A stretch of DNA of 64,000 nt from Deltaproteobacteria bacterium (GTDB taxonomy: Bacteria > Myxococcota > Myxococcia > Myxococcales > JAHFDP01). The translations under genes and the position numbers were made by a program. How positions within the stretch are numbered: the first letter of the stretch is position 1; each line of letters starts with the position of its first letter. The stretch is from the NCBI GenBank assembly GCA_023248955.1, contig JAHFDP010000007.1:1-64000 (forward strand). The letters are read 5' to 3'. Below, one piece after another: positions 3 through 19,727 of this stretch. The notes beneath the pieces are model-generated. The model was not told the DNA's origin. It did not search any database and saw only the letters and a list, made by a program, of their open reading frames with translations.

Positions 3-2465
3 GCGGATTGCGGCGGCGGCGGAACCTGCGGCTCCGGCTTCTGCACTTGCGACAGTTCGCACAAACTGTGCGGCACGCTCAATGCGTGCGTGGCAACCGG
101 CGTCTGCTGCACCGACAGTGACTGCAGCGGCGGCGGAAGCTGCGTCGGCGGGGCCTGCGTTTGCGACGGAACTCACAAATGGTGTGCCTCGCAAAATGCC
201 TGCATCGTTACCGCGGCCTGCTGCACCAGCGCGGATTGCGGAACGGGCGGCGCCTGCAACAACGGCGTCTGTGGCTGTGATTCGTCCCACAAGATGTGTC
301 CGGGAGCCTCGGTGTGCGTGGCCAAGTCGGCCTGCTGCACCGACAGCGACTGCAGCGGCGGCCAAGTCTGCTCGAACGGCGCGTGCGCTTGCGACAGTGC
401 ACACAAGTGGTGCACCGCGCAGAATGCCTGCATCGCCACCACCGCCTGTTGCACCGATGCGGATTGCGGAACGGGCGGCGCCTGCGCAAACGGCGTCTGC
501 GGCTGCGATTCGTCCCACAAGTTGTGTCCAGGCGCTTCAACGTGCGTGGCGAAAGCAGCTTGCTGCGTGGACGCGGATTGCAGCGGCGGCCAGATCTGCT
601 CGAACAGCGCGTGCGCCTGCGACAGTGCACACAAGTGGTGTACCTCGCAGGGGGCCTGCATTGGTGCCGCGGCCTGCTGCACCAGCGCGGATTGCGGCAG
701 TGGCGGTGCGTGCACGAACGGCGTCTGCGGCTGCGATTCGTCCCACAAGCTTTGCGGTTCCACCTGCGTCGCCAAAGCCGCCTGCTGTGTGGACGGCGAC
801 TGCAGCGGGGGCCAGGTCTGCTCGAGCGGCACGTGTGCCTGCGACAGTGCCCACAAATGGTGCACCGCGCAGAGTGCCTGCATCGCCAAAACGGCCTGTT
901 GCACCAGCGCGGATTGCGGCAGCGGCGGGTCATGCACGAACGGCGTTTGCGGCTGTGATTCGTCGCACAAGTTGTGCCCGGGATCCGCGGTTTGCGTCGC
1001 CCAGGCAGCCTGCTGCGCGGACAGCGACTGCGGCGGGGGACAAATTTGCACGAGCGGCGCATGTGCTTGCGACAGTGCCCATAAGTGGTGCGCCGCACAG
1101 AACGCCTGCATCGCGCTGACGGCCTGCTGCTCCAGCGCGGATTGCGGAACGGGCGGCGCCTGCGAAAACGGCGTTTGCGGCTGCGACGCCGCGCACAAAC
1201 GGTGCGGCGGCTCGGCGTTGTGCGTTCTGAAATCGGTCTGCTGCAGCGACAACGAGTGCGGCAGCGGCCAAGCCTGCACCAGCGGCGTTTGCGCGTGCGA
1301 TGGCGCGCACAAACATTGCCCCAACTCCACGGCCTGCCTGGCCACCGCCGCTTGCTGCTCCAACGCGGAATGCGGAACGGGCGGAACCTGCACCAGCGGC
1401 GCGTGCGGCTGCGACTCGTCGCACAAGCTGTGTCCGGGCTCGTCCGTGTGCGTCCTCAATGTGGTTTGCTGCACCGACAGCGATTGCGGCAGCGGCCAAG
1501 GTTGCACGAACGGCGTCTGCGCTTGCGACAGCACGCACAAGCAGTGCCCGGGCTCGACGGCGTGTGTGGCGAAGGACCTCTGCTGCGGCGACGCCGATTG
1601 CGGCAGCGGCGGAACCTGCTCTAACGGTGCCTGCGGCTGCGATGCCGCGCACAAAAAATGCCCGGGCTCGAATGTGTGCGTGAGCCAATCCGCCTGCTGC
1701 GCGGATAGCGATTGCGGCAGCGGCCAAGGTTGCACGAACGGCGTCTGCGCTTGCGACAGCACGCACAAGCAGTGCCCGGGCTCGACAGCGTGTGTGGCGA
1801 AGGACCTCTGCTGCGGCGACGCCGATTGCGGCAACGGCGGAACCTGCTCTAGCGGTGCCTGCGGCTGCGATGGCGCGCACAAAAAATGCCCGGGCTCGAA
1901 TGTGTGCGTGAGCCAATCCGCTTGCTGCACCGATAGCGCTTGCGGCAGCGGTCAAGCTTGCACGAGCGGTGCGTGCGTTTGCGACAGCGCACACAAACAG
2001 TGCCCGGTTTCCACGGCGTGCGTGGCCAAAGACACCTGCTGCGGCGATGCAGATTGCGGCAGCGGCGGAACGTGCGCCAGTGGGGCATGTGGCTGCGATA
2101 GCGCGCACAAAAAATGCCCAGGCTCGAATCTCTGCGTGGATCAATCCACCTGCTGCGCGGGCAGCAATTGCGGCGGACAAATCTGCACGAACAGCGTTTG
2201 CGCATGCGACAGCACACACAAATGGTGCCCCGCGCAGAGCGTCTGCATCGGCGTCGCAAGCTGTTGCTCGAGCGCGGATTGCAGCGCCGGCAACGACTGC
2301 ATCAACGGCGCATGCACGTCAACGGATGGCGCGACCGTTACTTTGCCTCCTCCTGGCAACGGGATCGCCGGCTGGTCCTGCGGTTGCAGTGCCGCTCGAC
2401 CGGGCGACGCGATGGCACTTCTCGCGCTGCTGATTTTCCTGCGCCCACGCCGGCGGCGATCATGA
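3..2465 (+). CDS. Cys-rich repeat surface protein with MYXO-CTERM tail (5' end outside window)
   Basis: The frame is open from the first base, so the N-terminus and signal peptide lie outside the window. What is visible is about 22 modules of 34-38 residues, each with a CC pair, a DCG.GG.C stretch, a CGCD or CACD turn and an HK.C step, so roughly one residue in six is Cys. Two module types alternate (CGCDSSHK.C and CACDSAHKWC), giving a super-repeat of about 73 residues. The C-terminus has a Cys-Gly-Cys turn, a hydrophobic helix (AMALLALLIFL) and an Arg-rich end, which is the layout of the MYXO-CTERM sorting signal; this implies export and surface anchoring. The stop overlaps the next start by ATGA, so the two genes are probably co-translated. 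Function is unknown; an extracellular disulfide-rich rod is an inference. Confidence 0.85.
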   Translation, partial: ADCGGGGTCGSGFCTCDSSHKLCGTLNACVATGVCCTDSDCSGGGSCVGGACVCDGTHKWCASQNACIVTAACCTSADCGTGGACNNGVCGCDSSHKMCPGASVCVAKSACCTDSDCSGGQVCSNGACACDSAHKWCTAQNACIATTACCTDADCGTGGACANGVCGCDSSHKLCPGASTCVAKAACCVDADCSGGQICSNSACACDSAHKWCTSQGACIGAAACCTSADCGSGGACTNGVCGCDSSHKLCGSTCVAKAACCVDGDCSGGQVCSSGTCACDSAHKWCTAQSACIAKTACCTSADCGSGGSCTNGVCGCDSSHKLCPGSAVCVAQAACCADSDCGGGQICTSGACACDSAHKWCAAQNACIALTACCSSADCGTGGACENGVCGCDAAHKRCGGSALCVLKSVCCSDNECGSGQACTSGVCACDGAHKHCPNSTACLATAACCSNAECGTGGTCTSGACGCDSSHKLCPGSSVCVLNVVCCTDSDCGSGQGCTNGVCACDSTHKQCPGSTACVAKDLCCGDADCGSGGTCSNGACGCDAAHKKCPGSNVCVSQSACCADSDCGSGQGCTNGVCACDSTHKQCPGSTACVAKDLCCGDADCGNGGTCSSGACGCDGAHKKCPGSNVCVSQSACCTDSACGSGQACTSGACVCDSAHKQCPVSTACVAKDTCCGDADCGSGGTCASGACGCDSAHKKCPGSNLCVDQSTCCAGSNCGGQICTNSVCACDSTHKWCPAQSVCIGVASCCSSADCSAGNDCINGACTSTDGATVTLPPPGNGIAGWSCGCSAARPGDAMALLALLIFLRPRRRRS

Positions 2466-3706
2466 ACGCATCCCGACTCACTCCCCCTCTTTTATCGGCA
2501 CTGCTGGTGCTTCACACCGCGGCGACGGTGCGCGCGGAGGAAGTCTCAGCACCCGACGATCCCTTTCACCTCGGCTTGGCCGTCTTTGGCGAGGGCGTGG
2601 CGCGCCGCGCTGGGCTGGAGGCCGAGCTTACCTACGCGCTCTTGCCGGCGATCGACGTTGGGCTGGGCGCCGCGCTCGGCCAGTACCGAGGCGGGTTTCT
2701 GCTCGGCTCGATGGAATTTACGCGTGCCATGGTCCGCCCATTTTTAGAGGTGCGTGGCGTCGGTTATCTCGTTCCCGAGGGCAGCGTTCTCGGTGGCGGC
2801 GTCGGTGTCGGCCTGCGCGGTCCAGCGCTCGGCGGTCGTGCGAAGGCGATCGTCGCCGGTGCTGCTTATGCCGCTCCCCGTGGCTACAACCAGTTCGCGG
2901 CGTTCTTGATGCTTGGTTACGAGTTCGGATTTGGATCGGCGCTTTTTGGTTTCAATCGTACGCCGCGTCCAGTCGCGGCGCCCACGGTTGCACGTCCCGC
3001 CGCGCCACCGGAGGAACCGCCGGCCGCAGAGACAGTCGCCGCGTCTGTCTCGACCGTACCGATCGATGTGCGCCCCGCCTCGCCCGCGCCTGGCGATGGA
3101 ACGTTGCGAGGGCAGGTCACCGATCTCAACGATCATCCGTTGGTGGCCGTGTTGCATCTCTCCAGCAGTGCCAAGACGCTGGGGCGCGATCTTCCAGCCT
3201 CGCCCGGATTCGAGGCGCGCCTCGGGCCAGGGACTTACGCGGTGGAGGTTGTTGCCAACGGTTATCTCGCTCGCGGGGGGACGCTAGAGATTCGCGCTGG
3301 GGAAACGCTCGTCCACGACTTCCAACTTAGGCCGGTGCCGGCCACCGCCGAGGCCGAGCTCACTGCGCAATCGATTCACATTCTTCACCCAATCCATTTC
3401 GCGTTTAACGAGTCGCGCATTCTCTCCGATTCCTTTGGTCTGCTCGATCAGGTGGCCGATATTTTGGTGCGCAAACAGGAAATCCAGGTGCGCATCGAAG
3501 GCAACACCGACGATGTGGGCGGCACGGCCTACAACCAACGGCTCTCGGAAAATCGGGCGCACTCCGTGCTCGAGTACCTCGTCGAGCGCGGCGTCGCACG
3601 GCATCGGCTTACGTCGATTGGTTATGGCAAGTCCCGGCCCCTCGAGCCCAACACCAGCGACGCCGCGCGGGCGCGCAACCGGCGTGTCGAATTTATCGTG
3701 CGGTAG
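2462..3706 (+). CDS. OmpA-family outer-membrane protein with regulatory-like domain
   Basis: A 414-aa exported protein. A signal peptide covers residues 1 to about 25 (ends TVRA-EE). The next ~160 residues are Gly-rich amphipathic strands like a small beta-barrel. A Pro/Ala linker follows, then a carboxypeptidase-regulatory-like fold (GTLRGQVTDLNDHPL to the end of an FQLRPV strand). The last ~110 residues are an OmpA C-terminal peptidoglycan-binding domain, with the typical IEGNTDDVGG, NQRLSENRA and ARNRRVEF motifs. I chose the ATG that overlaps the upstream stop (ATGA); longer starts would run through the upstream gene. It likely tethers the outer membrane to peptidoglycan. The neighbouring caspase-like gene overlaps its 3' end, suggesting a shared transcript. 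Confidence 0.85.
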   Translation: MNASRLTPPLLSALLVLHTAATVRAEEVSAPDDPFHLGLAVFGEGVARRAGLEAELTYALLPAIDVGLGAALGQYRGGFLLGSMEFTRAMVRPFLEVRGVGYLVPEGSVLGGGVGVGLRGPALGGRAKAIVAGAAYAAPRGYNQFAAFLMLGYEFGFGSALFGFNRTPRPVAAPTVARPAAPPEEPPAAETVAASVSTVPIDVRPASPAPGDGTLRGQVTDLNDHPLVAVLHLSSSAKTLGRDLPASPGFEARLGPGTYAVEVVANGYLARGGTLEIRAGETLVHDFQLRPVPATAEAELTAQSIHILHPIHFAFNESRILSDSFGLLDQVADILVRKQEIQVRIEGNTDDVGGTAYNQRLSENRAHSVLEYLVERGVARHRLTSIGYGKSRPLEPNTSDAARARNRRVEFIVR

Positions 3707-5594
3707 GTTCCCCTCCCTGCCAAAGGGAAGGGGAAAGAGCGTCGCGCTGGTCGCCGCGATTCTCTGCTGCGCGTCGGCGCAAGCCGAAGAACGATTCGCG
3801 CTGCTGATTGGCGCCAACGCAGGCTGGTCCAACGATCGCCCGTTGCGCCACGCTGAAACCGATGCCGAGCGGGTGCGCAACGTTTTGGTCGAATTGGGCG
3901 GCTTTCCCGCCGACCGCACGGAGCTCTTGCGCGATCCCACCACTGCGGATGTCCGTGCCAGCCTCCGTCGCCTGGCGGCCGTGCTGCGCGGGCAGACGTC
4001 GCCGTCGCTCGTTGTCGTCTACTACTCGGGCCACGCCGACGAGCGCTTTCTGCACCTGCGCGGCGAGACGCTTTCGCTCGACGAAGTTTACGAAACCTTG
4101 CGCGATCTGCCGGCCACCGTCCGCGTCGGCATTTTCGACGCTTGCCGTTCGGGCTCGATCATTGCTGCGAAGGGCGGCCGTCCGGTGGCACGCTTCGAGG
4201 TGAAAGTCGTCGATGACCTCGCGGTGAGCGGCGTCGCCGTGCTCACCTCTAGCGGCGCCGACGAGCTGGCGCAGGAGACGCGCACGCTGGCCGGATCGGT
4301 CTTCACGCACCACCTCGTGTCGGGCCTGCGCGGTGCGGCGGATGCCAACCACGACGCTCAGGTGACGCTGGCCGAGGCCTACCGCTATGCACACGCGCGC
4401 ACGGAGGCGGACACCGCGGGGAGCCTCGTTCCGCAGCGGCCGGCGTTTCGCTACGAGCTGCGCGGGCAGGGCGAAGTGGTGCTGACGCACGATCAAAAAA
4501 CCGCGGCCACGTTGGTGCTTCCGCGTGGCGATGGCGAGCGCTACGTGGTGGTCGATCCCAACGAGTGGCAGCTCTTCGCCGAGGCGCGCACGACGAAAGA
4601 TCACGCGCAAGCGCTGGAACTTTTGCCCGGCGCCTACCATGTGAAGCAGCTCTTTCCGGATCGGCTCGGCGTGGCAGAAGTTTCGCTCTCCGCGGGCCAG
4701 CGGCTGGAGGTTGCCTCGCTTGCGTTTTCGCCGCGGCCCCTTTCGGCGGGGTTGCTCAAGGGCCGGCCGCTGGACAGCGATCCCGAGGAGCTTCGCCTCT
4801 GGCAGCGCGGCGAAGCCTTGCGGCTCCTCGCCTCCGATGAGGCCGGCGCGGCGCTGGCGATCTTCGACAAACTCCTGGCCGCGCGCCCCGATGATCGGGG
4901 AAGCCTGCGGGGACGCGGTCGCGCGCTGGTGCGGCTGGCCGAAGCTTATGCGCGCGTTGGCGATCACGAAGCGGAGCGCAAGTCGCTCAAGAGCGCGCTC
5001 TCGGCCGATCCGTCACTCTCGGAAGATCCCGATTTTCAGAGCTGGTATCGCCGGCTTGCGGAGCTGGAAGCGGTCCAGCAGCGGCAAGAGGAAATTCACG
5101 CCGCGGTCGAAGAAGAGATCGCCAAAAATCCGCGACTGTTGCGCAAGTGGGGCGTCGGCGGCGAGCTCATCAGCACGCGCGGCGCGATGGGGATCGTCGG
5201 CAACTACATCTACCGTTCCATCTGGTTTCCCAGTGTGATGATCGACTTGCCGGGTCCCGGTCTCGATCTCTCGCTGCGCCTGGTGCCGATATCTTTTAAG
5301 TGGAGTCCATTCATTGGCGCAGGCGCGCATGTCGGATTGAGGACGCCGTCGAAAAGCACCTCCGGTGGCTTGACGACGACCACGGACAAGAAAAACGGAA
5401 CCACGCCGGCGACTTCGCAATACGGCTACGACGAAATCTTCAGCCGCAGCGCCCATGTCGACGTCGGTATTCAGTATTTCGGTCCATCGGGATTTGCGAC
5501 GGAGTTTGGCCTCGGGCTCATCGTTTTCCCGGGGCAAAGTGCACCGCTGGATTGGCTGGTGCTGCCGCAGTTCAACGCGGGTTGGTATTTTTGA
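3684..5594 (+). CDS. Caspase-like (peptidase C14) protein with TPR-like and C-terminal beta-barrel regions
   Basis: About 636 aa if it starts at the GTG chosen here, which overlaps the OmpA-like gene by 23 bp; a start slightly downstream is possible because a purine-rich AGGGGAAAG lies there. Residues 1-34 look like a signal peptide (hydrophobic ALVAAILCCASAQA). Residues 37 to about 260 are a caspase/metacaspase domain with the His of YYSGHAD (about 117) and the Cys of IFDACRSG (about 154), so the catalytic dyad is intact. Helical repeat sequence of TPR type spans about 360-470. The last ~150 residues are alternating strands ending in Trp-Tyr-Phe, as in outer-membrane barrels. The substrate is unknown. 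Its end overlaps tail-to-tail (23 bp) with an anti-sigma gene on the other strand, a context that suggests signalling from the envelope. The fusion of protease and barrel is unusual. Confidence 0.85.
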   Translation: MSNLSCGRFPSLPKGRGKSVALVAAILCCASAQAEERFALLIGANAGWSNDRPLRHAETDAERVRNVLVELGGFPADRTELLRDPTTADVRASLRRLAAVLRGQTSPSLVVVYYSGHADERFLHLRGETLSLDEVYETLRDLPATVRVGIFDACRSGSIIAAKGGRPVARFEVKVVDDLAVSGVAVLTSSGADELAQETRTLAGSVFTHHLVSGLRGAADANHDAQVTLAEAYRYAHARTEADTAGSLVPQRPAFRYELRGQGEVVLTHDQKTAATLVLPRGDGERYVVVDPNEWQLFAEARTTKDHAQALELLPGAYHVKQLFPDRLGVAEVSLSAGQRLEVASLAFSPRPLSAGLLKGRPLDSDPEELRLWQRGEALRLLASDEAGAALAIFDKLLAARPDDRGSLRGRGRALVRLAEAYARVGDHEAERKSLKSALSADPSLSEDPDFQSWYRRLAELEAVQQRQEEIHAAVEEEIAKNPRLLRKWGVGGELISTRGAMGIVGNYIYRSIWFPSVMIDLPGPGLDLSLRLVPISFKWSPFIGAGAHVGLRTPSKSTSGGLTTTTDKKNGTTPATSQYGYDEIFSRSAHVDVGIQYFGPSGFATEFGLGLIVFPGQSAPLDWLVLPQFNAGWYF

Positions 5595-6264
5595 CAAGCC
5601 GTACGTGCCCCACCGCTACGCCAGGCAGCGCCTGCTCTAGCGGCTGGCCGCCTCGGAGCGCGGCGGTTGCCGCTGCCAGCGAAAAAGGCGCGCTGCTGAT
5701 GATCGCGTAGAGATCCTCGCTGACGCCGGCGGCATCGAGCTCGATGGCATCGGGCAGGAGCGGATCGCGCGGATCGTAGCGCTTGGCCGCGCTGGCGCCG
5801 AAGGGCGCGTAGACGGTCACCGCGCCAGTTGAATCACGCCCGATCACCGCCACAAACCCCGCGGCTGGCGCGGTCACTTGAAAGCGAATCTGATCGCCGG
5901 CTGCGAGGTGATCCTCTGGCCCCAAACGAACGGTTACCGCGCCCCGTTTGGCGTACACCACCAGGCTGACGCCGCCTTTGATGGTGGTCGCCTCCTCTCG
6001 GCTGGGTACCAGAACGAGCGCGGCCAGCGCGGCCGCGGGAACCGCCAGGAGCGAAAAGAGCCAGCGCCGCCGCCGCTGCGACGTCAGGCGATCGACCACA
6101 GGTCCGGGAGGATGTTGCAAGAGAAAAGCAGCGCTGTCGGCCCGAAGATCGGCCAGCCGAGCGCGATCGATGTCCGAGCGCTGGAGCGTGGCTTCGAGCT
6201 CGGCGCGCAACGCCGTCGGAAGATCGTTCGCCAAGTAGCGTTCCAGCAGCGCGTCCGGAATCAT
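5572..6264 (-). CDS. Membrane anti-sigma factor with DUF4384-like periplasmic domain
   Basis: A 230-aa protein whose ATG overlaps the sigma gene stop (ATGA), the usual arrangement of sigma/anti-sigma pairs. Residues 1-60 are helical and start with an LLERYLANDLP motif common in zinc-free anti-sigma N-termini. A QRRRRW cluster precedes one membrane segment at about 68-86, which by the positive-inside rule puts the N-terminus in the cytoplasm and residues 90-230 in the periplasm. The periplasmic part resembles the DUF4384 family (VVYAKRGA, GDQIRFQV, GFVAVIGRD, DLYAIISSAPF). Its gene ends inside the end of the convergent caspase-like gene. I infer that it holds the adjacent sigma factor until an envelope signal or proteolysis releases it; the trigger is not visible. 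Confidence 0.75.
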   Translation of the reverse strand: MIPDALLERYLANDLPTALRAELEATLQRSDIDRARLADLRADSAAFLLQHPPGPVVDRLTSQRRRRWLFSLLAVPAAALAALVLVPSREEATTIKGGVSLVVYAKRGAVTVRLGPEDHLAAGDQIRFQVTAPAAGFVAVIGRDSTGAVTVYAPFGASAAKRYDPRDPLLPDAIELDAAGVSEDLYAIISSAPFSLAAATAALRGGQPLEQALPGVAVGHVRLVKNTNPR

Positions 6265-6806
6265 GCCGCCCTCTCGAGCTGCACGCTGCGTTTCTGCGCC
6301 CGCGCCGCGAAATCCGCCAGCATCTTGCCCACCGTCTTGCGCGACAGATCGAGCGTCTGTCCCACTTCTTGTGTGGTGTAGCCTTCCACGAAGTAGAGCA
6401 GCGCCGCCGTCATGACGTCCGCGCGCTCGCCCTTGGTGAGAATCGCCAGGTCGCGGGCCGCTTCAACGCGCCGCGCACCGCCCGTTTGCCCATCGGCGCC
6501 GCGCTCGATTTCGCGCTGCGCTTCGTCTCGGTCCTCTTCGGTGGGCAGCGAGAGACGTACCGTGCCTGACCAGCGTGCCGTGTGCCGAATCTTGTCCAAG
6601 GCCTTGTGGGTCGCGATTTGGTAGAGCATCGCGAAGGGTGAAGCGGCAGTTGCGAGGAGATTCTGTTCGCGCAGCGCGGCCATGAACGTCTCCTGCAAAA
6701 TATCCAGCGCCTCTTGCTCGTCGCCGACCAGCGTTTTGGCGCGACGAAAAATGGCCGGTCCGAACCGCTTGTAAGCTTCTGCAAGCTCCGCGTTCGGACC
6801 GGCCAT
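6261..6806 (-). CDS. RNA polymerase sigma-70 family (ECF-type) sigma factor
   Basis: A 181-aa protein with a region 2 helix set (RFGPAIFRRAKTLVGDEQEALDILQETFMAAL) typical of ECF sigma factors, and a region 4 helix-turn-helix near the C-terminus (YTTQEVGQTLDLSRKTVGKML). No sigma region 1.1 or 3 is present. It lies 13 bp downstream of the small outer-membrane protein gene and overlaps the anti-sigma gene by 4 bp, so all three are probably one operon. Which ECF group it belongs to and which promoters it reads cannot be told from this sequence. Confidence 0.9.
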   Translation of the reverse strand: MAGPNAELAEAYKRFGPAIFRRAKTLVGDEQEALDILQETFMAALREQNLLATAASPFAMLYQIATHKALDKIRHTARWSGTVRLSLPTEEDRDEAQREIERGADGQTGGARRVEAARDLAILTKGERADVMTAALLYFVEGYTTQEVGQTLDLSRKTVGKMLADFAARAQKRSVQLERAA

Positions 6807-6819
6807 GACCGCAACTTAG

Positions 6820-7410
6820 TTAAAGAATCGAATAACCTCCAGAGAGGCCGACGATGAATCCGCCCGGCTCCAGGATGTCCATCACGCCCTTGGTCAGACC
6901 GGTCACCGCGCCGCCGCCGTCATACGAATAGTTGGTGTCGCTGCCCAACTTGAGGCCGTAGCCCGCGCGCAACGCCAGCCACCCGGCAACGCCCAGCCGG
7001 ATGCGGTAGCCGAGCGAAGCATTGACCGTTGCGGTCATCTCCTCGTTGATTTTGCGTGTGACCCCGTTCTCGGTGGAGGAGGCGGTCGAGCCGAGGTTGA
7101 TGCTGGAGCCGGCTTCGATAAAGAGCCCGGCGGTGTTGACGCCGAACGGATAGAGGCGGAGCTGCGGCGTCGCCTTGTAGCCCCAAGCGCCGCTGCCCGC
7201 GCCCAGGCCCACCGAGAGCCAATCGAAGAGGCGGTAGTCGGCCTCAACGCCGTAAACACCGCCGGGATTGTTGAGCCCGCCGCTCACGCCCAAATCGAGA
7301 TGGGGGACCGGAGGACGCGCGGCCGGTTCGTCGGCCCGAGCGGTGGAATTGACGGCGACGAGCGCGATCAGCGCGGAAGCGAGGATGGTGCGAAACGAGG
7401 TGCGGGTCAT
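6820..7410 (-). CDS. Small outer-membrane beta-barrel protein
   Basis: A 196-aa protein with a signal peptide (cleavage near STARA-DEP, residue 26) and Gly/aromatic-rich alternating strands, including LDWLSVGLGAGSGAWGY-like and LGYRIRLGVAGWLALRAGYGL segments, ending in a short hydrophobic strand (GGYSIL). A clear AAGGAG ribosome site sits 8 bp before the ATG. It is the first gene of an operon with a sigma and anti-sigma pair, so it may be part of the sensed or regulated envelope state. The family is not recognised beyond generic outer-membrane-barrel features. Confidence 0.7.
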   Translation of the reverse strand: MTRTSFRTILASALIALVAVNSTARADEPAARPPVPHLDLGVSGGLNNPGGVYGVEADYRLFDWLSVGLGAGSGAWGYKATPQLRLYPFGVNTAGLFIEAGSSINLGSTASSTENGVTRKINEEMTATVNASLGYRIRLGVAGWLALRAGYGLKLGSDTNYSYDGGGAVTGLTKGVMDILEPGGFIVGLSGGYSIL

Positions 7411-11525: not shown

Positions 11526-11636
11526 CTACCGTAAATCGAAATAGTGCTTGACACCGCCATCGGGTCTGCGCCATTTCTCGCTGTTCGAAGCCCAACATTG
11601 ATGGGTTCCGAACATAACTCTAAGCCGAGGGATTCC

Positions 11637-14600
11637 ATGAATAAGCAGCGCGCGAACGTTTTGGCGACTTCGCTTTCCGCCGTTCTTGCCGTTTTTGCCC
11701 TCGCGGGATGCCCGGCTCCTACCAACGGAAACGCCGATGGCGGCGACGTTGTTACGGTGACGCTCTCGTCCATCGCGCTGACGCCGGACAGCAAGTCGAT
11801 TGCCGTCGGCACGACTTTCAAGTTCGTGGCCACCGCAACGCTTTCCGATAAGACCACGAAGGATCTGAGCAGCACGGCGACCTGGAGCAGCGCGGACGCC
11901 AAGGTGGCGACCGTCTCGTCCGCCGGAGAGGCGACAGCCGTTGCCCCGGGCACGGCGGTCATCACCGCGGAGAAGGATGGAGTCAAAGGAACGGCAACGC
12001 TAACGGTGACGGCCGCGAAGCTTCTCTCGATCGCACTCTCGAATCCGAAGGCATCGATATCCAAGGGGACCAGCGTTCAGCTCACGGCGACCGGAACGTA
12101 CGACAACAACACCACGCAGGACCTTACCGCCATGAAGGGCGTGACCTGGACCTCGTCGGACTCCAGCATTGCCGCCGTTGACGCGGGTCTCGTGCATGGC
12201 GCGGCGGTTGGCACCGCCAAAATTACGGTGACCGACGATGCGACGAAGCTGACTGCGGATACCCAGATCGCGGTGACCGATGCGGTACTGGATCACGTCT
12301 CCGTCGAGCCGCTCTTGCCGTCGATTCCCAAGGGCACGCCACAGGAATTCACGGCCACCGGCGTTTTCACCGACGGGACCACGCAGCCGCTCAAGTCGCC
12401 GGACGACGTGGTCTGGTCTTGCGCCACGCTCACGGGAACCGGCGTGTGCACCATTTCGGTGGCGAACGGTGAAAAGTACACCGTGACCGGAACGGGTGAG
12501 GGAACGGCGACGGTAGCCGCGACGCACACCAGCGGCATCGTCGGAAGCACCACCCTGACGGTGACCGCCGCGCAACTGGTGTCGATGACCATTGCGCCCG
12601 CGACGCTTCCGGCCTCGGTGCCGAACGGTTTGCGGTTGCACTTCACGGCAACGGGAGTCTTCACCGATAGCGTCAGCCACGACATCACCAACGACGTGAC
12701 GTGGGACACCGCCGATCACGCGGTCGCCGTTATCGCCAACGCTGACAACAACGCAGACAAGGTCAAAAAAGGCGACGCCACCGGAAAGGCCGTCGGTAGC
12801 ACCGATGTCACCGCGACGTTGCACGGCATCACGAGTCCTGCGGTGAAGCTCACGGTGACGGATGCGGTGCTCTCCAAGATCGAGCTGCACCCTGGGTCGA
12901 GCGAAGTGGCCAAGGGTCTGCACCAACAGTTTGATGCCACCGGCATCTTCTCGGACGGTTCCAACAAGCCCATTACGGCCGACTGCACCTGGACCTCGTC
13001 GGACACCTCGGTGGCGACGGTCTCCAACACGATTTCCACCAAGGACCCCGTGGGAAACGCCACCACTTTGAAAGTTGGGCCGACCACGATTTCCGCGGTT
13101 CATCCAAAGTACACGGACGTTCCGGCTGGAACGGCGCTGCTCACGGTGACTGGCGCCCGGGTCAATGGCCTGCTTATCTCGCCGGCGGTTCCGCAGCTTC
13201 CTCGTGGAATGAGCCTGCAGTTCCAGGCTTCCGCGCTCTACACCGACGGAAGTGCCGCTGATGTCACCACCGATTCGCACCTGGTTTGGTCGTCTGAAAA
13301 CGCGCTGGTCACGGGCATTAGCACGGGCGGTCTGGCCGGGCCTGCCTCCGACCTGGACAGCAGCACCCACACCACGCGCATCACGGCCATCTATTCGACC
13401 AGCAACGGCGTGAATGCGGGGCCATTTTCCGCCGTCACCGTGCTCACGGTGACGGCGGCCATCGTCGATACACTCAGTATCGGACCGACATCGCTCACGC
13501 TTCCGGTGGGCGTGCATGACGGCCACTTCGTCGCTACCGCCGCCATGACCGACGGCAACCACCGCGACATTACCAACGACGAGCACATCACCTGGTCCAG
13601 CAGCGCGCCCACCATCGCGCAGGTCAGCAATGCCGGGGGCGCCATCAAGGGCAACATCAGCCCGCTCGTTGCGAGCAGCGACACGGTGATCATCACCGCG
13701 ACCTACGCTGGCCTGACCAAGAGCGGAGCTATCGTCACGGGCACGGGCAGCGTGACGGTGACCGCGGCGCAGGTGGTCGACTTCATCGTGCAGCCATTCG
13801 GTGGCGCCACGGTGAACAACGTCAACATCCCGCCCGTCAGTATTTCCAGCGGCAGCTCGCGCCAATTCCAGGCGCTGGCGGCGTTCACGGACGGGACTTC
13901 TTCCGCGATTACCAGCAGCGCCACGTGGAGCGTGGAAGGATGCACGCCGATCGGCGCCGGGTCGCTCGACGGTTCCAAGCCCGGCTATTTTACAGCGAAC
14001 CATCTGGGAACCTGCACCATCTCGGCCTCGGCGAAAGCGGGGCACGCCCAGCTACTGCAGAAGCGCCAGACCGTCGTCAAAGTTGAGCCGCCGTACATCA
14101 CGCAGGTTAGCGTGACGCCGACCGATCCCACGGCGACCACCAATGCACTGCCGAGCCAGTTCCATGCCACCGCGCTGTTTAGCGATGGCCACCAAGCGGA
14201 CATCTCCAAGGATCCGAATCTCGCCTGGACGTCGTCGGTAACGAGCGTGGCCACCATCGGAAATGACAACACGCACATGACCGAGAAGGGCGTGGTCAAG
14301 ATCGTCGCTTCGGGGACGAGCGTGATCACTGCCAAGATTAACAACGGCACCTCCGACTTGACCGGCACCACCACGCTCACCGTTTCCAACGCGGTGCTCC
14401 AGAAGATCACGGTGGAGCCGCCGACGCCTTCCTTCAGCGCTGGCGCGCATTTTCCCGTCGCCGCTTTTGGCCTCTATAACGACAACACCAAGCGCGGCCT
14501 CACCCTCGACGCCGCCTGGAGCAGCAGCAATGCCTCCATCGCCAAAGTGACCTACGTTTACGACAGCAACAATGTAGTGATCGGCGTGTTCGTGGACGCC

Positions 14601-17600
14601 GTGGCGCAAGGCACCGCTACCATTACCGCGACGTATGGCAGCACGACTGGCACTTCTACGGTGACGGTCAACGCGGCGACGCTGAAGGGCATCGGCATCA
14701 GCCCAGTGAATGGCACGGTTCCGTCCGGGACCAAGCTGCAATTCACGGCTACCGGTTACTACTCCGACCTCTCAACGCAAGATCTCACCAGCGTGGCGAC
14801 CTGGACCTCATCGGTCACGGCCTCGGCCACCGTCGATGCGACCGGATCTGCGCTAGGTCTTCTCAAGGGCCAAACGGTGGTGACCGCGACCTACGGCGGT
14901 AAGACCAGCAACCCAGCTACACTCAATGTAACCGGCGCTGTCCTCAACTCGATCGCGCTCTCTCCGGCTGCTCCGTCCATCGCCAAGGGCACGCGTCGCC
15001 CGCTGGTGGCCACCGGAAACTTCTCCGACGGCACCACGCGCAACATGAGCGGTGGCGTGGCCTGGACCACTTCGGACACCGCGGTGGCCACGGTTGACCC
15101 CTACGGCGTGGTGTTTGGCGCCGGAACGGGAACGGCCACCATCACCGCAACCGATTCCTTGTCCTCGGGGATTGCCGCGACGGTTGTGGTCACGGTTACC
15201 TCCGCTACATTGAATGGAATTGCTGTCGATCCAGGCCGCGGTGTTGTCGCCGCCGGAACGACGTTGCAGTTCCACGCCACCGGCTTCTACTCCGATGGCG
15301 GCCATGTCGATCTCACCAGCAGCGCCACCTGGTCCTCGTCCTCCAGCGCCGTGGGAACCATCTCCACCACAGGCTTGGCGACCGGTGTGGCGCAAGGCGT
15401 GGCGTCGATTTCGGCGACCTATGGCGGGAAGACCGCACCGACCGTGCTGCTCAATGTGACCCAGGCAACGCTGGTGTCGATCGGCATCACGCCCAGCAAT
15501 GCCAGCATCGCCAAGGGAACGCTGCAGCAGTTCCGAGCCACCGGACTTTACAGTGACAACACCACGCAAGATCTCACCGGCAAGGTGACCTGGACCAGCG
15601 ACTCCACCAGCGTCGCGCCGATCACGAGCTCGCCCGATGTGACGTTTGGCATCGCTTACGGCGCCGGCCAAGGAACGGCCACCATCACCGCGACGGCTTC
15701 TTGGACCACGACGCCGGTTACGGCTTCCAGCACGCTCACCGTGAACGCGGCCACGTTACGCTTGGTGAGCGTAAGCCCGAAAGTCACCGCGGTGCCCAGC
15801 GGCAACAGCGTTCAGTTCCACGCCACGGGCATCTACTCGGATGGATCCACGCACGACCTGACCGGCGCGGTGCAGTGGACGGCGGGTGACGCTGCGGTGG
15901 TGAGCGTCTCCAGCGCCACCGATTCGGCCGGCGTGGCCACGGGAATCGCGCAAGGATCGACGACGGTGATCGCGACCTACGCGGTGGATGCTTCCACCAC
16001 GATGTACGGCGCGGCGGCGATCGCCGTTTCCGCTGCGACGCTCGCCTCTATCGCGGTCACGCCAGCGTCTGTCACCATGCCGAAGGGGACGTTGCAGTGG
16101 GTCCATGCAGTCGGAACCTTCTCGGACAAGAGCACGCGAGACATCACCGGCGGCGTAACCTGGTCCACGGATTCCTCGAGCGTCGTGGCAGTCGGAAACG
16201 GTCTCGATGCGGGTGGCAAGCTCTACGCGGTGGGTGCGGGTTCGGCGACTATCACCGCCAGCATGCCCATTGCCGGGAGCGCCACGCCCAAGAGCGCCAC
16301 GGCGTCGGTGACCGTGTCGAGCGCCACGTTGTCCAAGTTGATCCTCAACCCAGTTGCCTTCGCCATTGCCAAGGGCACCGCGCTGCAAATGCATGCGCTG
16401 GGTATCTACAGCGATGGCTCGAACAAGGATCTCACCTCGACGGTAACCTGGGCGGTGAGCGCGAACACGTCGTCGTTTGCGTCCATCTCCAACGGCGCGA
16501 CCGACGTGGGAACGGTGACCGGACTCGCGGAAGGTGTAGCCAGCATCTCGGCGACCGATTCCAACTCGTCCGTCGCCTCGACGGTGCCGGCGCTCATCAA
16601 GGTGACTGCGGCGACGCTCAAGTCGCTCTCGATCACTCCCTCTTCCGTGAGCATTCCCAAAGGCACGCTTCATCACTTCGTGGCTATCGGGACGTTCACC
16701 GATGGATCGACGCGCGATTTGACTAGCGTGGCGGGCTGGGACACCTCCGACCCCACCATTGCCACGGTGTCGAGCGCGTTCACGGTCGGTGGTCTGGCCT
16801 ATGGCGTCGCGCAAGGCAGCGTCACCATCACAGCCAAAGTGCCGGCCGGTACGAGTTACGTCAGCGCTTCCGCGGGACTCAACGTGAGCGCGGCGACGCT
16901 GCTCGGCGTTGTCGTCAATCCCCTCGGAACTTCCATCGCCGCGGGAACCACGGTGCAGTACCACGCCACCGGTATCTACACGGACAAGACTACGCAAGAC
17001 CTGACGGGTGCTGTGACCTGGGAAATCGATTCCAATTGCACTGCAGCGACAATCTCCAACGCGGCCGATTCGGCGGGCGTTGCAACGGGCGTTTCCGCGG
17101 GATCTTGCACGGTAAAAGCCACGGACGCGTCCTCGGGTGTGGCCAGCCTTTCGGTAGGTCTGGCCGTTCGGGCCGCGTTCCTCTCGAAGCTCGACGTGAC
17201 CACGCAGACGCCCAACATCGCCGCCGGAACACGTGGTTGGTACATGGCGACCGGCACCTTCTCGGACGGACGTGTGCAGGACATGACCCATCTGGTCGGC
17301 TGGAAGTCCTCGGATCCCGCCATCGCTTCAGCCGTGGATGGCGTCGTCTACGGCGTGGCAGCTGGATCGGCGACGATCTACGCCACGGGCATCGGCAACA
17401 ACGGCGCTTCCGTAAGCGGTGCCGCGGGAGTCGCCGTCGGCACAGCCACGCTTGACCATCTCATCATCGATCCGATCAAGTGGGCCATGCCCGCGGGCAC
17501 CATTCGGCAGTTTCACGCCATCGGCATCTACTCCGACAAGTCGGCGCGTGACTTGACGAACGATCTGAGCTGGTCGACCGGTGACGCAACGTTGGCCTCG

Positions 17601-19727
17601 GTGAATAGCACCGGCGTGGTTTCCGCCATCGCGCAGGGGACGACCACGGTGAAGGCCACCTTCGCGGATTCCAGCGTCGACTCTTCGAAGTGGATCTCCG
17701 CGACGACGCTCGAGCTGAAAATCACCGCCGCGACGCTGCAAGCGATTGTCGTGTCGCCGCAAACGGCGACCATACCGGCGGGCGGCCATTGGCACTTCCA
17801 AGCCTCGGGTCTCTTCTCGGATGGCTCCAGCCGCGACCTGACCGGCGTGGTGAGTTGGTCCTCGGCGGACGCTGCGACGGCCGTGATCGGCGACTGGGCG
17901 GGAAGCTCTGGTTGGGTGTTCGGCGTGGCGAAGGGCAACACCACGGTCAGCGCGAGCCTCTACACGCCGTTGGGTGTGGTGACCAGCCAACCGGCGACCG
18001 TGAACGTTACCGCCGCGACGATCGTGAACCTAGCCGTCTTCCCCGCGCTCTGGTCGATTCCCAAGGGAACGACGCTGCAGTTCTACGCTACGGCCTACTA
18101 CTCCGACGGCACGGTAAGCGACGTGACGAACGACGTGGCCTGGAGCGCCGTCGATGCGGGGCTCACCACCAGCACGTTCGCGGCTGTCTCCAACGCCGAC
18201 GGCACGCACGGCCTCGCCAGCGGAAACGCGGTGGGAACGGCGACCGTCACGGCGGTGATCGGCGGCGTGTCACAGAAATCTATTCTGAATATTCGCCTGC
18301 CGGATTTGGCCAGCATCAGCGTGGGCCCCTCACCGGTGACCATCGCCGCGGGCACGGGCATTCAGCTGCACGCCATTGGCAACTTCTCCGACGGAACGTC
18401 GATGGACATCACCAACCGCGTGGCGTGGGACTCGAACGATCGCGCCTCGGCGACGGTGGTCAACGGTTGGCTCTACGGCGCGGCGCAGTCGAGCGGCGCG
18501 GTTAGCATCACCGCCATCGGAGCGAAGGCCGACGGTAAGACGTTGGTCACCGGCAGTGTCTCGGCCACCATCAGCGGCGCGGTCCTCAAGCGGCTGGTGG
18601 TGACACCGGCGGTTCGCGCCATCGCCAAGGGAACCACGATTCAATATTGGGCAAACGGCGTGTTCAGCGACGGCTCGGTGCGCGACCTGACGGGCGGGGT
18701 GACCTGGTCGTCTTCGGACGAGACCGTGGCTAGCGTGAGCAATGCCGATGGATTGCGCGGTTTGGCGACTGGCGTGGCGACTGGCGGAGTGACCATTACG
18801 GCCACCGATCCATTCACTGGCGTCTACTTAAAATCGTCGCTGACGGTCGCCGCGCAGAAGCTCTCCAGCATCAGCATCGCCACGGTGGGCGGCGCTTCCA
18901 CCACCATCGTCAAGGGCACGTCGGTGCTGCTCAAGGCGACGGGAACATTCACCGACGGCAGCACGCAAGACATCACCGGCGGGGTGAGCTGGGCTTCGAG
19001 TGATCCCACCGTGCTCACTGGCTGGTATGCGTTCGGCGGCGGCGTGGCCTGGGGGGTTGGTGTCGGGACGGCGAACGTCACGGCCACCGTTCCGAATTCC
19101 ACGGTCACTGCGGGAACGCTCTCCATCACGGTGAAAGCGGCCACGCTGACAACGGTGACGGTGCAGCCAGTTAGCCCGACGATTGCGGCCGGTACCACCA
19201 TCGAGCTGCACGCGATCGGCACCTTCGACAACGGCAGCAAACAGGACCTCACTGGACAGGTGTCGTGGACGTCCAGCGACGAGAACAGCGTGACCGTAAC
19301 GAACGGAACGGACACCTATGGCGTGGCGTATGGAGTGAAGGCGACTAGCGCGGCGGTAACCGTGACGGCCACCGCGGCGTTCACGGATAGCTCGGGAGCC
19401 ACCAGCACAGTAAGCGGCACCACGGCGCTCTCTATCAGCGGCGCGCTGGTTTCGAGTCTGGCAATTACGCCGGATCCTTCGACGTTGACGCTCTCCGCGG
19501 GCCCGACGGCGCAGCTCACTGCGACCGCCACCATGAGCGATGGCACCACGCAAGACGTGACCCACTTCGTCCTGTGGGAATCGGACAACACCGGCGCGGC
19601 CTTCGTCGGCACCGGACCGAGCAACGGCGGCCTCGTGTATGGTGTGGCGGCCGGTAGCGCGGTGATTACCTGCACCGTTCCGTGGAAGCCGAGCGTGACG
19701 GACGAGACGTTGGTGACGATTCAATAG
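11637..19727 (+). CDS. Giant BIG2 (bacterial Ig-like) repeat lipoprotein
   Basis: About 2,696 aa. The ATG has a GAGGGA ribosome site and opens a lipoprotein signal (FALAGC, Cys25). The rest is about 28 consecutive BIG2/invasin-type Ig-like domains of about 95 residues. Each starts with a hydrophobic-strand motif such as LVSIGITPSNASIAKGT, followed by FTATG.YSDG...DLT, then VTWTSSD, an ATV strand, GTATITAT and a closing LTV strand. The chain ends directly in the last domain with no C-terminal anchor, so the protein is probably held by the N-terminal lipid and projects outward as a rod. A TTGACA box at 11548-11553 is a possible -35. A strong terminator follows the stop. Role in adhesion is inferred from the family, not shown. 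Confidence 0.9.
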   Translation: MNKQRANVLATSLSAVLAVFALAGCPAPTNGNADGGDVVTVTLSSIALTPDSKSIAVGTTFKFVATATLSDKTTKDLSSTATWSSADAKVATVSSAGEATAVAPGTAVITAEKDGVKGTATLTVTAAKLLSIALSNPKASISKGTSVQLTATGTYDNNTTQDLTAMKGVTWTSSDSSIAAVDAGLVHGAAVGTAKITVTDDATKLTADTQIAVTDAVLDHVSVEPLLPSIPKGTPQEFTATGVFTDGTTQPLKSPDDVVWSCATLTGTGVCTISVANGEKYTVTGTGEGTATVAATHTSGIVGSTTLTVTAAQLVSMTIAPATLPASVPNGLRLHFTATGVFTDSVSHDITNDVTWDTADHAVAVIANADNNADKVKKGDATGKAVGSTDVTATLHGITSPAVKLTVTDAVLSKIELHPGSSEVAKGLHQQFDATGIFSDGSNKPITADCTWTSSDTSVATVSNTISTKDPVGNATTLKVGPTTISAVHPKYTDVPAGTALLTVTGARVNGLLISPAVPQLPRGMSLQFQASALYTDGSAADVTTDSHLVWSSENALVTGISTGGLAGPASDLDSSTHTTRITAIYSTSNGVNAGPFSAVTVLTVTAAIVDTLSIGPTSLTLPVGVHDGHFVATAAMTDGNHRDITNDEHITWSSSAPTIAQVSNAGGAIKGNISPLVASSDTVIITATYAGLTKSGAIVTGTGSVTVTAAQVVDFIVQPFGGATVNNVNIPPVSISSGSSRQFQALAAFTDGTSSAITSSATWSVEGCTPIGAGSLDGSKPGYFTANHLGTCTISASAKAGHAQLLQKRQTVVKVEPPYITQVSVTPTDPTATTNALPSQFHATALFSDGHQADISKDPNLAWTSSVTSVATIGNDNTHMTEKGVVKIVASGTSVITAKINNGTSDLTGTTTLTVSNAVLQKITVEPPTPSFSAGAHFPVAAFGLYNDNTKRGLTLDAAWSSSNASIAKVTYVYDSNNVVIGVFVDAVAQGTATITATYGSTTGTSTVTVNAATLKGIGISPVNGTVPSGTKLQFTATGYYSDLSTQDLTSVATWTSSVTASATVDATGSALGLLKGQTVVTATYGGKTSNPATLNVTGAVLNSIALSPAAPSIAKGTRRPLVATGNFSDGTTRNMSGGVAWTTSDTAVATVDPYGVVFGAGTGTATITATDSLSSGIAATVVVTVTSATLNGIAVDPGRGVVAAGTTLQFHATGFYSDGGHVDLTSSATWSSSSSAVGTISTTGLATGVAQGVASISATYGGKTAPTVLLNVTQATLVSIGITPSNASIAKGTLQQFRATGLYSDNTTQDLTGKVTWTSDSTSVAPITSSPDVTFGIAYGAGQGTATITATASWTTTPVTASSTLTVNAATLRLVSVSPKVTAVPSGNSVQFHATGIYSDGSTHDLTGAVQWTAGDAAVVSVSSATDSAGVATGIAQGSTTVIATYAVDASTTMYGAAAIAVSAATLASIAVTPASVTMPKGTLQWVHAVGTFSDKSTRDITGGVTWSTDSSSVVAVGNGLDAGGKLYAVGAGSATITASMPIAGSATPKSATASVTVSSATLSKLILNPVAFAIAKGTALQMHALGIYSDGSNKDLTSTVTWAVSANTSSFASISNGATDVGTVTGLAEGVASISATDSNSSVASTVPALIKVTAATLKSLSITPSSVSIPKGTLHHFVAIGTFTDGSTRDLTSVAGWDTSDPTIATVSSAFTVGGLAYGVAQGSVTITAKVPAGTSYVSASAGLNVSAATLLGVVVNPLGTSIAAGTTVQYHATGIYTDKTTQDLTGAVTWEIDSNCTAATISNAADSAGVATGVSAGSCTVKATDASSGVASLSVGLAVRAAFLSKLDVTTQTPNIAAGTRGWYMATGTFSDGRVQDMTHLVGWKSSDPAIASAVDGVVYGVAAGSATIYATGIGNNGASVSGAAGVAVGTATLDHLIIDPIKWAMPAGTIRQFHAIGIYSDKSARDLTNDLSWSTGDATLASVNSTGVVSAIAQGTTTVKATFADSSVDSSKWISATTLELKITAATLQAIVVSPQTATIPAGGHWHFQASGLFSDGSSRDLTGVVSWSSADAATAVIGDWAGSSGWVFGVAKGNTTVSASLYTPLGVVTSQPATVNVTAATIVNLAVFPALWSIPKGTTLQFYATAYYSDGTVSDVTNDVAWSAVDAGLTTSTFAAVSNADGTHGLASGNAVGTATVTAVIGGVSQKSILNIRLPDLASISVGPSPVTIAAGTGIQLHAIGNFSDGTSMDITNRVAWDSNDRASATVVNGWLYGAAQSSGAVSITAIGAKADGKTLVTGSVSATISGAVLKRLVVTPAVRAIAKGTTIQYWANGVFSDGSVRDLTGGVTWSSSDETVASVSNADGLRGLATGVATGGVTITATDPFTGVYLKSSLTVAAQKLSSISIATVGGASTTIVKGTSVLLKATGTFTDGSTQDITGGVSWASSDPTVLTGWYAFGGGVAWGVGVGTANVTATVPNSTVTAGTLSITVKAATLTTVTVQPVSPTIAAGTTIELHAIGTFDNGSKQDLTGQVSWTSSDENSVTVTNGTDTYGVAYGVKATSAAVTVTATAAFTDSSGATSTVSGTTALSISGALVSSLAITPDPSTLTLSAGPTAQLTATATMSDGTTQDVTHFVLWESDNTGAAFVGTGPSNGGLVYGVAAGSAVITCTVPWKPSVTDETLVTIQ

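Follow-up and report, generated by a model that had tools for sequence, protein, structure and literature searches.

Related systems and the locus under study

The serine protease DegS carries a PDZ domain and is tethered to the inner membrane. In the DegS/RseA/RseP system, the site-1 cut of a transmembrane anti-sigma factor is followed by RseP and ClpXP steps that free an extracytoplasmic function (ECF) sigma factor, while in the Craspase system (Cas7-11-Csx29/Csx30/CASP-sigma) a caspase-family protease has been shown to cleave the protein that inhibits an ECF sigma factor, with relief of inhibition also supported (PMC10028731). Here we describe a locus in a stretch of 64,000 nt from a Deltaproteobacteria bacterium (contig JAHFDP010000007.1; hereafter the window), in which the gene for an exported caspase-like protease faces those for an ECF sigma factor and a transmembrane anti-sigma factor. 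This trio is one rearranged copy of a widespread myxobacterial sigma/anti-sigma/exported-caspase module. On sequence comparison, we consider it probable that the caspase gates the sigma factor across the envelope, by processing itself and then making the site-1 cut in the anti-sigma factor.

The proposed site-1 cut of a transmembrane anti-sigma factor is the likeness to DegS/RseA/RseP, but the candidate site-1 enzyme in the window is a caspase with a predicted outer-membrane barrel. Like Craspase (PMC10028731), the locus pairs a caspase-family protease with an ECF sigma factor whose inhibitor it would cut. However, Craspase is a CHAT-type protease activated by RNA through a CRISPR (clustered regularly interspaced short palindromic repeats) effector, whereas the window system has an exported protease of the C14 type and a membrane anti-sigma factor as the inhibitor. 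Identity with CHAT/Craspase was rejected, as the window protease scores with Peptidase_C14, has no CHAT match and bears a signal peptide. The ECF54 sigma factors, which have CHAT, subtilase or carboxypeptidase neighbours and for which proteolytic control has been proposed, likewise place caspase-clan proteases next to ECF sigma genes; however, they are proposed to work without an anti-sigma factor, CHAT is a different branch, and the accessible sections of that report do not mention export (PMC8999054). In the EACC2-caspase systems, which also have ECF sigma neighbours, caspase-triggered activation has been proposed, but these are described as counter-invader conflict systems, and the corresponding sections describe neither a transmembrane anti-sigma factor nor a shared cut site (PMC8195603).

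Four of the five metacaspases of M. xanthus lie in operons with sigma-70 genes, and the same operon structure was noted in Anaeromyxobacter, Haliangium and Sorangium (Asplund-Samuelsson 2012, PMC3501461). These operons very probably represent the same module as that of the window, and the gene association itself is therefore not new, contrary to an earlier sequence-only reading of this DNA, which knew of no precedent for the architecture. The main text of the 2012 survey mentions neither an anti-sigma factor nor the periplasm; it proposes autolysis or cell death, and the sections accessible to us contain no barrel, Lys/Arg-Gly (K/R-G) motif or cleavage model. In the open-access literature on orthocaspase/anti-sigma and DUF4384/caspase/anti-sigma combinations, we found no report of the present mechanism. 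Thus, while the gene association was partly known, what appears to be new is the membrane anti-sigma factor, along with the cut motif common to both proteins and the exchangeability of the anchors.

The sigma/anti-sigma/caspase trio of the window

The three genes are as follows.

3684..5594, + strand: exported caspase-like protease, 636 aa (signal peptide, caspase, TTR-like, TPR-like helices, C-terminal barrel)
5572..6264, - strand: transmembrane anti-sigma factor, 230 aa, with a DUF4384-like periplasmic domain (family A1; structure model)
6261..6806, - strand: ECF sigma factor, 181 aa (Sigma70_r2 35.9 bits; TIGR02937 45 bits)

The genes described by the sequence-only reading are present and correctly placed, and the caspase gene, which starts with GTG, does overlap the anti-sigma gene tail-to-tail, by 23 bp. 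The anti-sigma gene in turn overlaps the sigma gene by 4 bp. The protease matches Peptidase_C14 with E=4e-17 (63 bits, against a cut-off of 21.4) and has an intact His117/Cys154 dyad, as first read, which together place it in C14. A phmmer search against the PDB gave no useful caspase match, the best metacaspase having an E of 0.14. Orthologues align over residues 21-636 with 41-58% identity. The signal peptide that had been proposed is borne out by a hydrophobic, signal-type N-terminus ending in CCASAQA before EE.

The anti-sigma assignment rests on a helical N-terminus (a four-helix domain in the structure model), a single transmembrane segment and the 4-bp overlap with the sigma gene; sigma binding is predicted. 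The window copy has no zinc-motif Cys, and Cys-containing relatives exist in the family. The C-terminal domain was read as DUF4384-like and predicted to be periplasmic; it does resemble DUF4384 (E=1.5e-4), but at 22.2 bits the window copy stays below the gathering cut-off of 27, whereas a paralogue in the same genome scores 43.2. The sigma factor lies above the cut-offs for Sigma70_r2 and TIGR02937 (42.9 bits), with region 4 just under its cut-off.

The module across myxobacteria

The window caspase was used as a query against 145 genomes of the order Myxococcales, and the individual loci compared were given L-numbers (e.g. L002). Full-length relatives with the same C-terminus were found, and their neighbourhoods contain the same sigma and anti-sigma families. 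Since orthologues of all three genes recur together in other genomes, chance neighbourhood was rejected as an explanation of the association. The gene order varies, being convergent in the window, divergent in L037 and L039, and co-directional in two forms, sigma/anti-sigma/caspase (L038, L041, L046 and L048) and caspase/sigma/anti-sigma (L050 and L051). The module occurs in several copies per genome: the source genome of the window has three, C25 (the window), C37 (L087) and C19 (L002), and in genome G103 an anti-sigma gene adjoins four of the five PF00656 caspases. Related operons are found in metagenome-assembled genomes labelled Kofleriaceae or Deltaproteobacteria (L149, L151-L153). One caspase that lies outside the module, L191, has no sigma gene next to it; it lacks a K/R-G past the catalytic Cys and shows no evident signal peptide.

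The sequence-only reading had proposed a search for a conserved neighbourhood in other myxobacterial genomes, and such a neighbourhood was found. Among 40 loci drawn by anti-sigma similarity alone (L082-L121, at about alternate ranks of the match list), 37 have an adjoining caspase. The remaining three are L083, which stops at a contig edge; L112, whose genome holds a separate caspase of similar type elsewhere (L029); and L121, in which just a signal peptide and a barrel remnant are left in the caspase slot. This 203-aa secreted-type remnant (L121:5157-5768), of which only the barrel end is preserved, lies directly past the anti-sigma gene and suggests that the catalytic domain was lost recently.

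Close orthologues of the caspase occur in 23 genomes, those of the anti-sigma factor in 22, and both in 22 (hypergeometric 4e-25, relatedness not corrected for). The co-occurrence also holds for widely separated genes. Four genomes of genus g33 show this (L033-L036 versus L122-L125), one of them matching Pyxidicoccus caerfyrddinensis.

Two loci show unusual arrangements. In L049 (6429-8372; a one-contig genome), an exported caspase and an ECF sigma factor occupy one open reading frame with no stop between them. If this were a true fusion, the sigma factor would end up in the periplasm, but its start codon is retained inside the frame, which makes a lost stop with internal initiation likely. 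L045, the same locus as L154, has two caspase modules side by side in one genome.

A K/R-G motif shared by the caspase and the anti-sigma stalk

The predicted cut sites, and the residues predicted to recognize and cut them, are the following.

5974..5979, - strand: K96-G97 of the anti-sigma factor, predicted caspase cut site in the periplasmic stalk (K/R-G in 121/121 caspase-linked anti-sigma factors)
6004..6063, - strand: single transmembrane segment of the anti-sigma factor, residues 68-87 (hydropathy 2.4)
3861..3863, + strand: Asp60, predicted acidic residue of the S1 pocket (68/68 module caspases; role by analogy with metacaspases)
4032..4034, + strand: catalytic His117 (68/68)
4137..4145, + strand: Asp152-Ala-Cys154, catalytic Cys and second predicted S1 Asp (68/68)
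4170..4175, + strand: K163-G164, predicted inter-subunit self-processing site, 9 residues past the catalytic Cys (Lys in 68/68)
4758..4763, + strand: K359-G360, predicted anchor-release site (60 K and 7 R of 68)

Residue counts for the caspase refer to 68 aligned K-type module caspases. For the anti-sigma factor, column counts refer to a first set of 72 aligned proteins, and the stalk count to 121 non-identical proteins with an adjoining caspase. In all of these 121, K-G (90) or R-G (31) lies within 42 residues past the transmembrane segment. The stalk column is K in 70 of the 72 aligned proteins, while other columns reach at most 22% Lys, except for one near the C-terminus. In the window, K96 sits in a stretch of low model confidence between the transmembrane segment and the first strand of the DUF4384-like domain.

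In metacaspases, two Asp residues form an S1 pocket for basic side chains. Both predicted counterparts are invariant among the 68 caspases, so that by analogy the pocket is predicted to suit a basic P1 residue. Orthocaspases are reported to cut after basic residues (PMC6426788). The caspases themselves carry K/R-G at two places, one of them 7-9 residues past the catalytic Cys and the other between the protease and its anchor. The activating cut of effector caspases falls about 12 residues past the catalytic Cys (Asp175 in caspase-3), and the first of these positions is thus the spot at which a caspase zymogen would mature.

The motif follows the presence of the caspase. A cognate caspase was taken as one adjoining the anti-sigma gene or located elsewhere in the genome; for unlinked anti-sigma factors it was assigned through orthologue families, which does not in itself prove the pairing. 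The motif is kept in 131 of 131 anti-sigma factors with a cognate caspase. Among eight anti-sigma factors of the same family that have a sigma gene and no cognate caspase, seven have lost it, through Q, T or a deletion (L131, L206, L220, L225, L227, L228 and L236). Fisher's test gives p 4.7e-11 with relatedness ignored. On the tree, each of the two traits changes four times and no pair runs in the opposite direction; the formal independent-pairs test was not significant, with too few pairs.

The same seven proteins bear on the idea that K-G is a structural feature of the entry into DUF4384, its likeness to the caspase sites being coincidental. The dipeptide does directly precede the first strand of the domain, and the DUF4384 comparison covered anti-sigma factors only, but these anti-sigma factors have the same domain without K/R-G, and R-type modules carry R in both proteins. 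We regard this explanation as barely credible.

The R-type clade consists of the C19 module and about 28 relatives, which, with few exceptions, have Arg at the three sites in both proteins. When the residue type was scored at the aligned position, the stalk agreed with the post-Cys site of the caspase in 118 of 119 operons (88 K/K, 30 R/R and 1 R/K). In loci L239-L244, from a clade of lipoprotein caspases, GEKGG in the caspase stands alongside GEKG in the anti-sigma factor; covariation at P2 was rejected as a general feature of this clade, as other members pair VEKGG with GVKG.

The proposed relay and its alternatives

The mechanism put forward by the sequence-only reading, in which a periplasmic caspase cuts the anti-sigma factor and so frees the sigma factor, is well supported by this comparative evidence, and the shared K/R-G motif gives it an exact predicted cut bond. 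Of the outcomes that were to speak against it, neither a C-terminus without a barrel fold nor a neighbourhood peculiar to this genome came up. From the gene set, the predicted compartments, the intact catalytic residues, the linkage, the shared motif and its loss without the caspase, we infer the cleavages, their order, the triggering signal and the site-2 step.

In the proposed relay, the sigma factor would be held at the inner membrane by the anti-sigma factor, with the DUF4384-like domain in the periplasm, while the caspase would be exported as a zymogen, the window copy being tethered to the outer membrane via its barrel. A signal would lead the caspase to process itself after K163, beside the active site, and a further self-cut after K359 would free the protease from its anchor. 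The active caspase would then make the site-1 cut after K96 of the anti-sigma factor, in the part of the stalk that lies close to the outer face of the inner membrane. Once the periplasmic domain had been removed in this way, the sigma factor would be freed by an M50 site-2 protease together with cytoplasmic proteases. Candidate M50 site-2 proteases are present in the genome. More tentatively, and with slightly less confidence than its converse, we suggest that myxobacteria run several such caspase-zymogen cascades in parallel in the envelope, with exchangeable anchors and K/R-G self-maturation and release, each opening its own ECF sigma factor. This would bring caspase logic into bacterial transmembrane signalling, with several channels per cell.

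Three other accounts of the linkage and the motif were weighed. The caspase could be an output of the system, with the sigma factor controlling the caspase operon and the protease having other envelope proteins as its targets or taking part in cell death. The genes often share one operon, as is usual for regulon members, and the 2012 survey suggested programmed cell death (PMC3501461). Transcriptional control alone, however, leaves unexplained why the anti-sigma stalk bears the caspase's own motif, and why this motif is kept when the genes are unlinked and lost when the caspase is gone; we consider this account unlikely.

Less likely still, the stalk might serve as a pseudosubstrate that restrains the caspase, making the anti-sigma factor a sensor or inhibitor of the protease instead of its victim. 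A stalk with a conserved K/R-G would be well suited to dock in the S1 pocket, and the near-invariant Lys at the C-terminus of the anti-sigma factor (71/72) could dock uncut. Cutting is favoured by the predicted flexibility of the stalk and by the P1-prime residue, which in all linked stalks is Gly, just as it is where self-processing is predicted. The C-terminal Lys, K225 in the window, lies 2-6 residues from the end with no Gly after it, and is a possible docking element.

The motif occurs in both proteins and does not by itself name the enzyme that cuts it. Another Lys/Arg-specific envelope protease could therefore cut both at the common motif, with the caspase as a parallel substrate. We give this a marginally smaller chance than the pseudosubstrate, given that motif loss follows caspase loss, that neither the dyad nor the predicted basic S1 pocket is missing from any aligned module caspase, and that no such protease was seen as a constant component of the module.

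Several observations weigh against the caspase-gated relay. The periplasmic location of both proteins is a prediction, and the barrel match of the window caspase is only moderate (best E 1.7e-3). The orphan anti-sigma factor L223 still has R-G, and the losses of the motif amount to only about four events on the tree, for which phylogeny-corrected power is low. L238 pairs an R anti-sigma factor with a K caspase, and the K-to-R switch of the caspases is a single event on the tree, which makes the agreement in residue type strong as a pattern and weak as statistics. Strict K-versus-R covariation was rejected on the same ground, and also because in several K-type caspases the anchor site has R while the anti-sigma factor still has K. 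The lipoprotein clade is without the post-Cys K/R-G site. Finally, the caspases of L040 and L042 have no adjoining anti-sigma gene, and their genomes hold one elsewhere (L129 and L130).

To our knowledge, little has been established about which proteins bacterial caspase homologues cut in nature. For a large caspase family with several copies per myxobacterial genome, a candidate substrate can now be put forward, down to the individual bond. Anti-sigma control thereby gains a candidate site-1 protease of the caspase type, and a possible means of activation is proposed for several myxobacterial ECF sigma factors, as well as a non-lethal role for caspases that are often assumed to act in cell death.

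The caspase and its exchangeable anchors

Two further parts of the window caspase were delimited.

3684..3785, + strand: signal peptide, residues 1-34, ending ASAQA before EE (hydropathy peak at residues 20-34; the junction, A-x-A before E, also in orthologues)
5148..5588, + strand: C-terminal 8-stranded barrel, residues 489-635 (AlphaFold2 and Foldseek)

The predicted anchor-release site K359-G360 has the protease/TTR part on one side and the TPR/barrel part on the other. The helical repeats noted from the sequence are present as a TPR_8 match, although a weak one (E=0.005, below the cut-off). The barrel-like C-terminus, for which the sequence-only reading had proposed structure prediction, was modelled with AlphaFold2 on the C-terminal 164 residues, yielding short helices and eight strands with a predicted local distance difference test score (pLDDT) of 81.9 and a predicted template modelling score (pTM) of 0.73. 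The nearest solved folds in Foldseek are the barrels of OprF, Opa60 and OmpA (probability 1.00), and the match to OprF is moderate evidence, with template modelling scores of 0.51/0.60 and a best E of 1.7e-3. The C-terminus is thus predicted to be an OmpA-like outer-membrane barrel.

This architecture describes the window copy, but the barrel is one of several exchangeable caspase anchors in the module, the others being a transmembrane hairpin, a lipid or none. The C-terminus is barrel-like in the window and in most modules examined, the modelling having covered the window's first-tier family only. Two hydrophobic helices take the place of the barrel in L038, L041, L043, L044 and L046-L048, and the caspases of L050-L051 have no C-terminal anchor. 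In a fourth clade, found in 84 of the 145 genomes, an N-terminal lipobox joins the C-terminal part. Across the barrel, helix and lipobox types, a K/R-G dipeptide separates the protease from its anchor, in the form LLK-GRP in the window, FVK-GVE before the helices and (E/D)K-GG right past the lipobox Cys.

Some caspase relatives differ in the region past this site. In L024 and L128, long WD40-type repeats follow the K-G site and there is no barrel. In L086, L093, L107, L117, L140, L141 and L202, long repeats of the GVQxAxGxNxAxG type run from the K/R-G site to the terminal barrel, which suggests that they form a repeat stalk.

Flanking genes

The trio is flanked by two genes for barrel proteins.

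2462..3706, + strand: barrel/OmpA-domain protein (OmpA 74 bits; its last 23 bp overlap the start of the caspase gene)
6820..7410, - strand: small secreted barrel protein (OMP_b-brl E=2.8e-4, below the cut-off; ends 13 nt before the sigma gene start)

The OmpA-domain gene and the caspase gene are probably co-transcribed, and the small barrel gene is the probable first gene of the sigma/anti-sigma operon. Further upstream, positions 90-2465 (+ strand) encode a 791-aa protein of Cys-rich repeats, which has no match in Pfam or NCBIfam. The end of its gene overlaps the OmpA-domain gene, and its C-terminus resembles a MYXO-CTERM sorting tail (GWSCGCSAAR...LLALLIFLRPRRRRS). Downstream, at 11544-19727 (+ strand), an open reading frame of 2727 aa has a lipoprotein-like start followed by many bacterial Ig-like repeats of Big_2 appearance.

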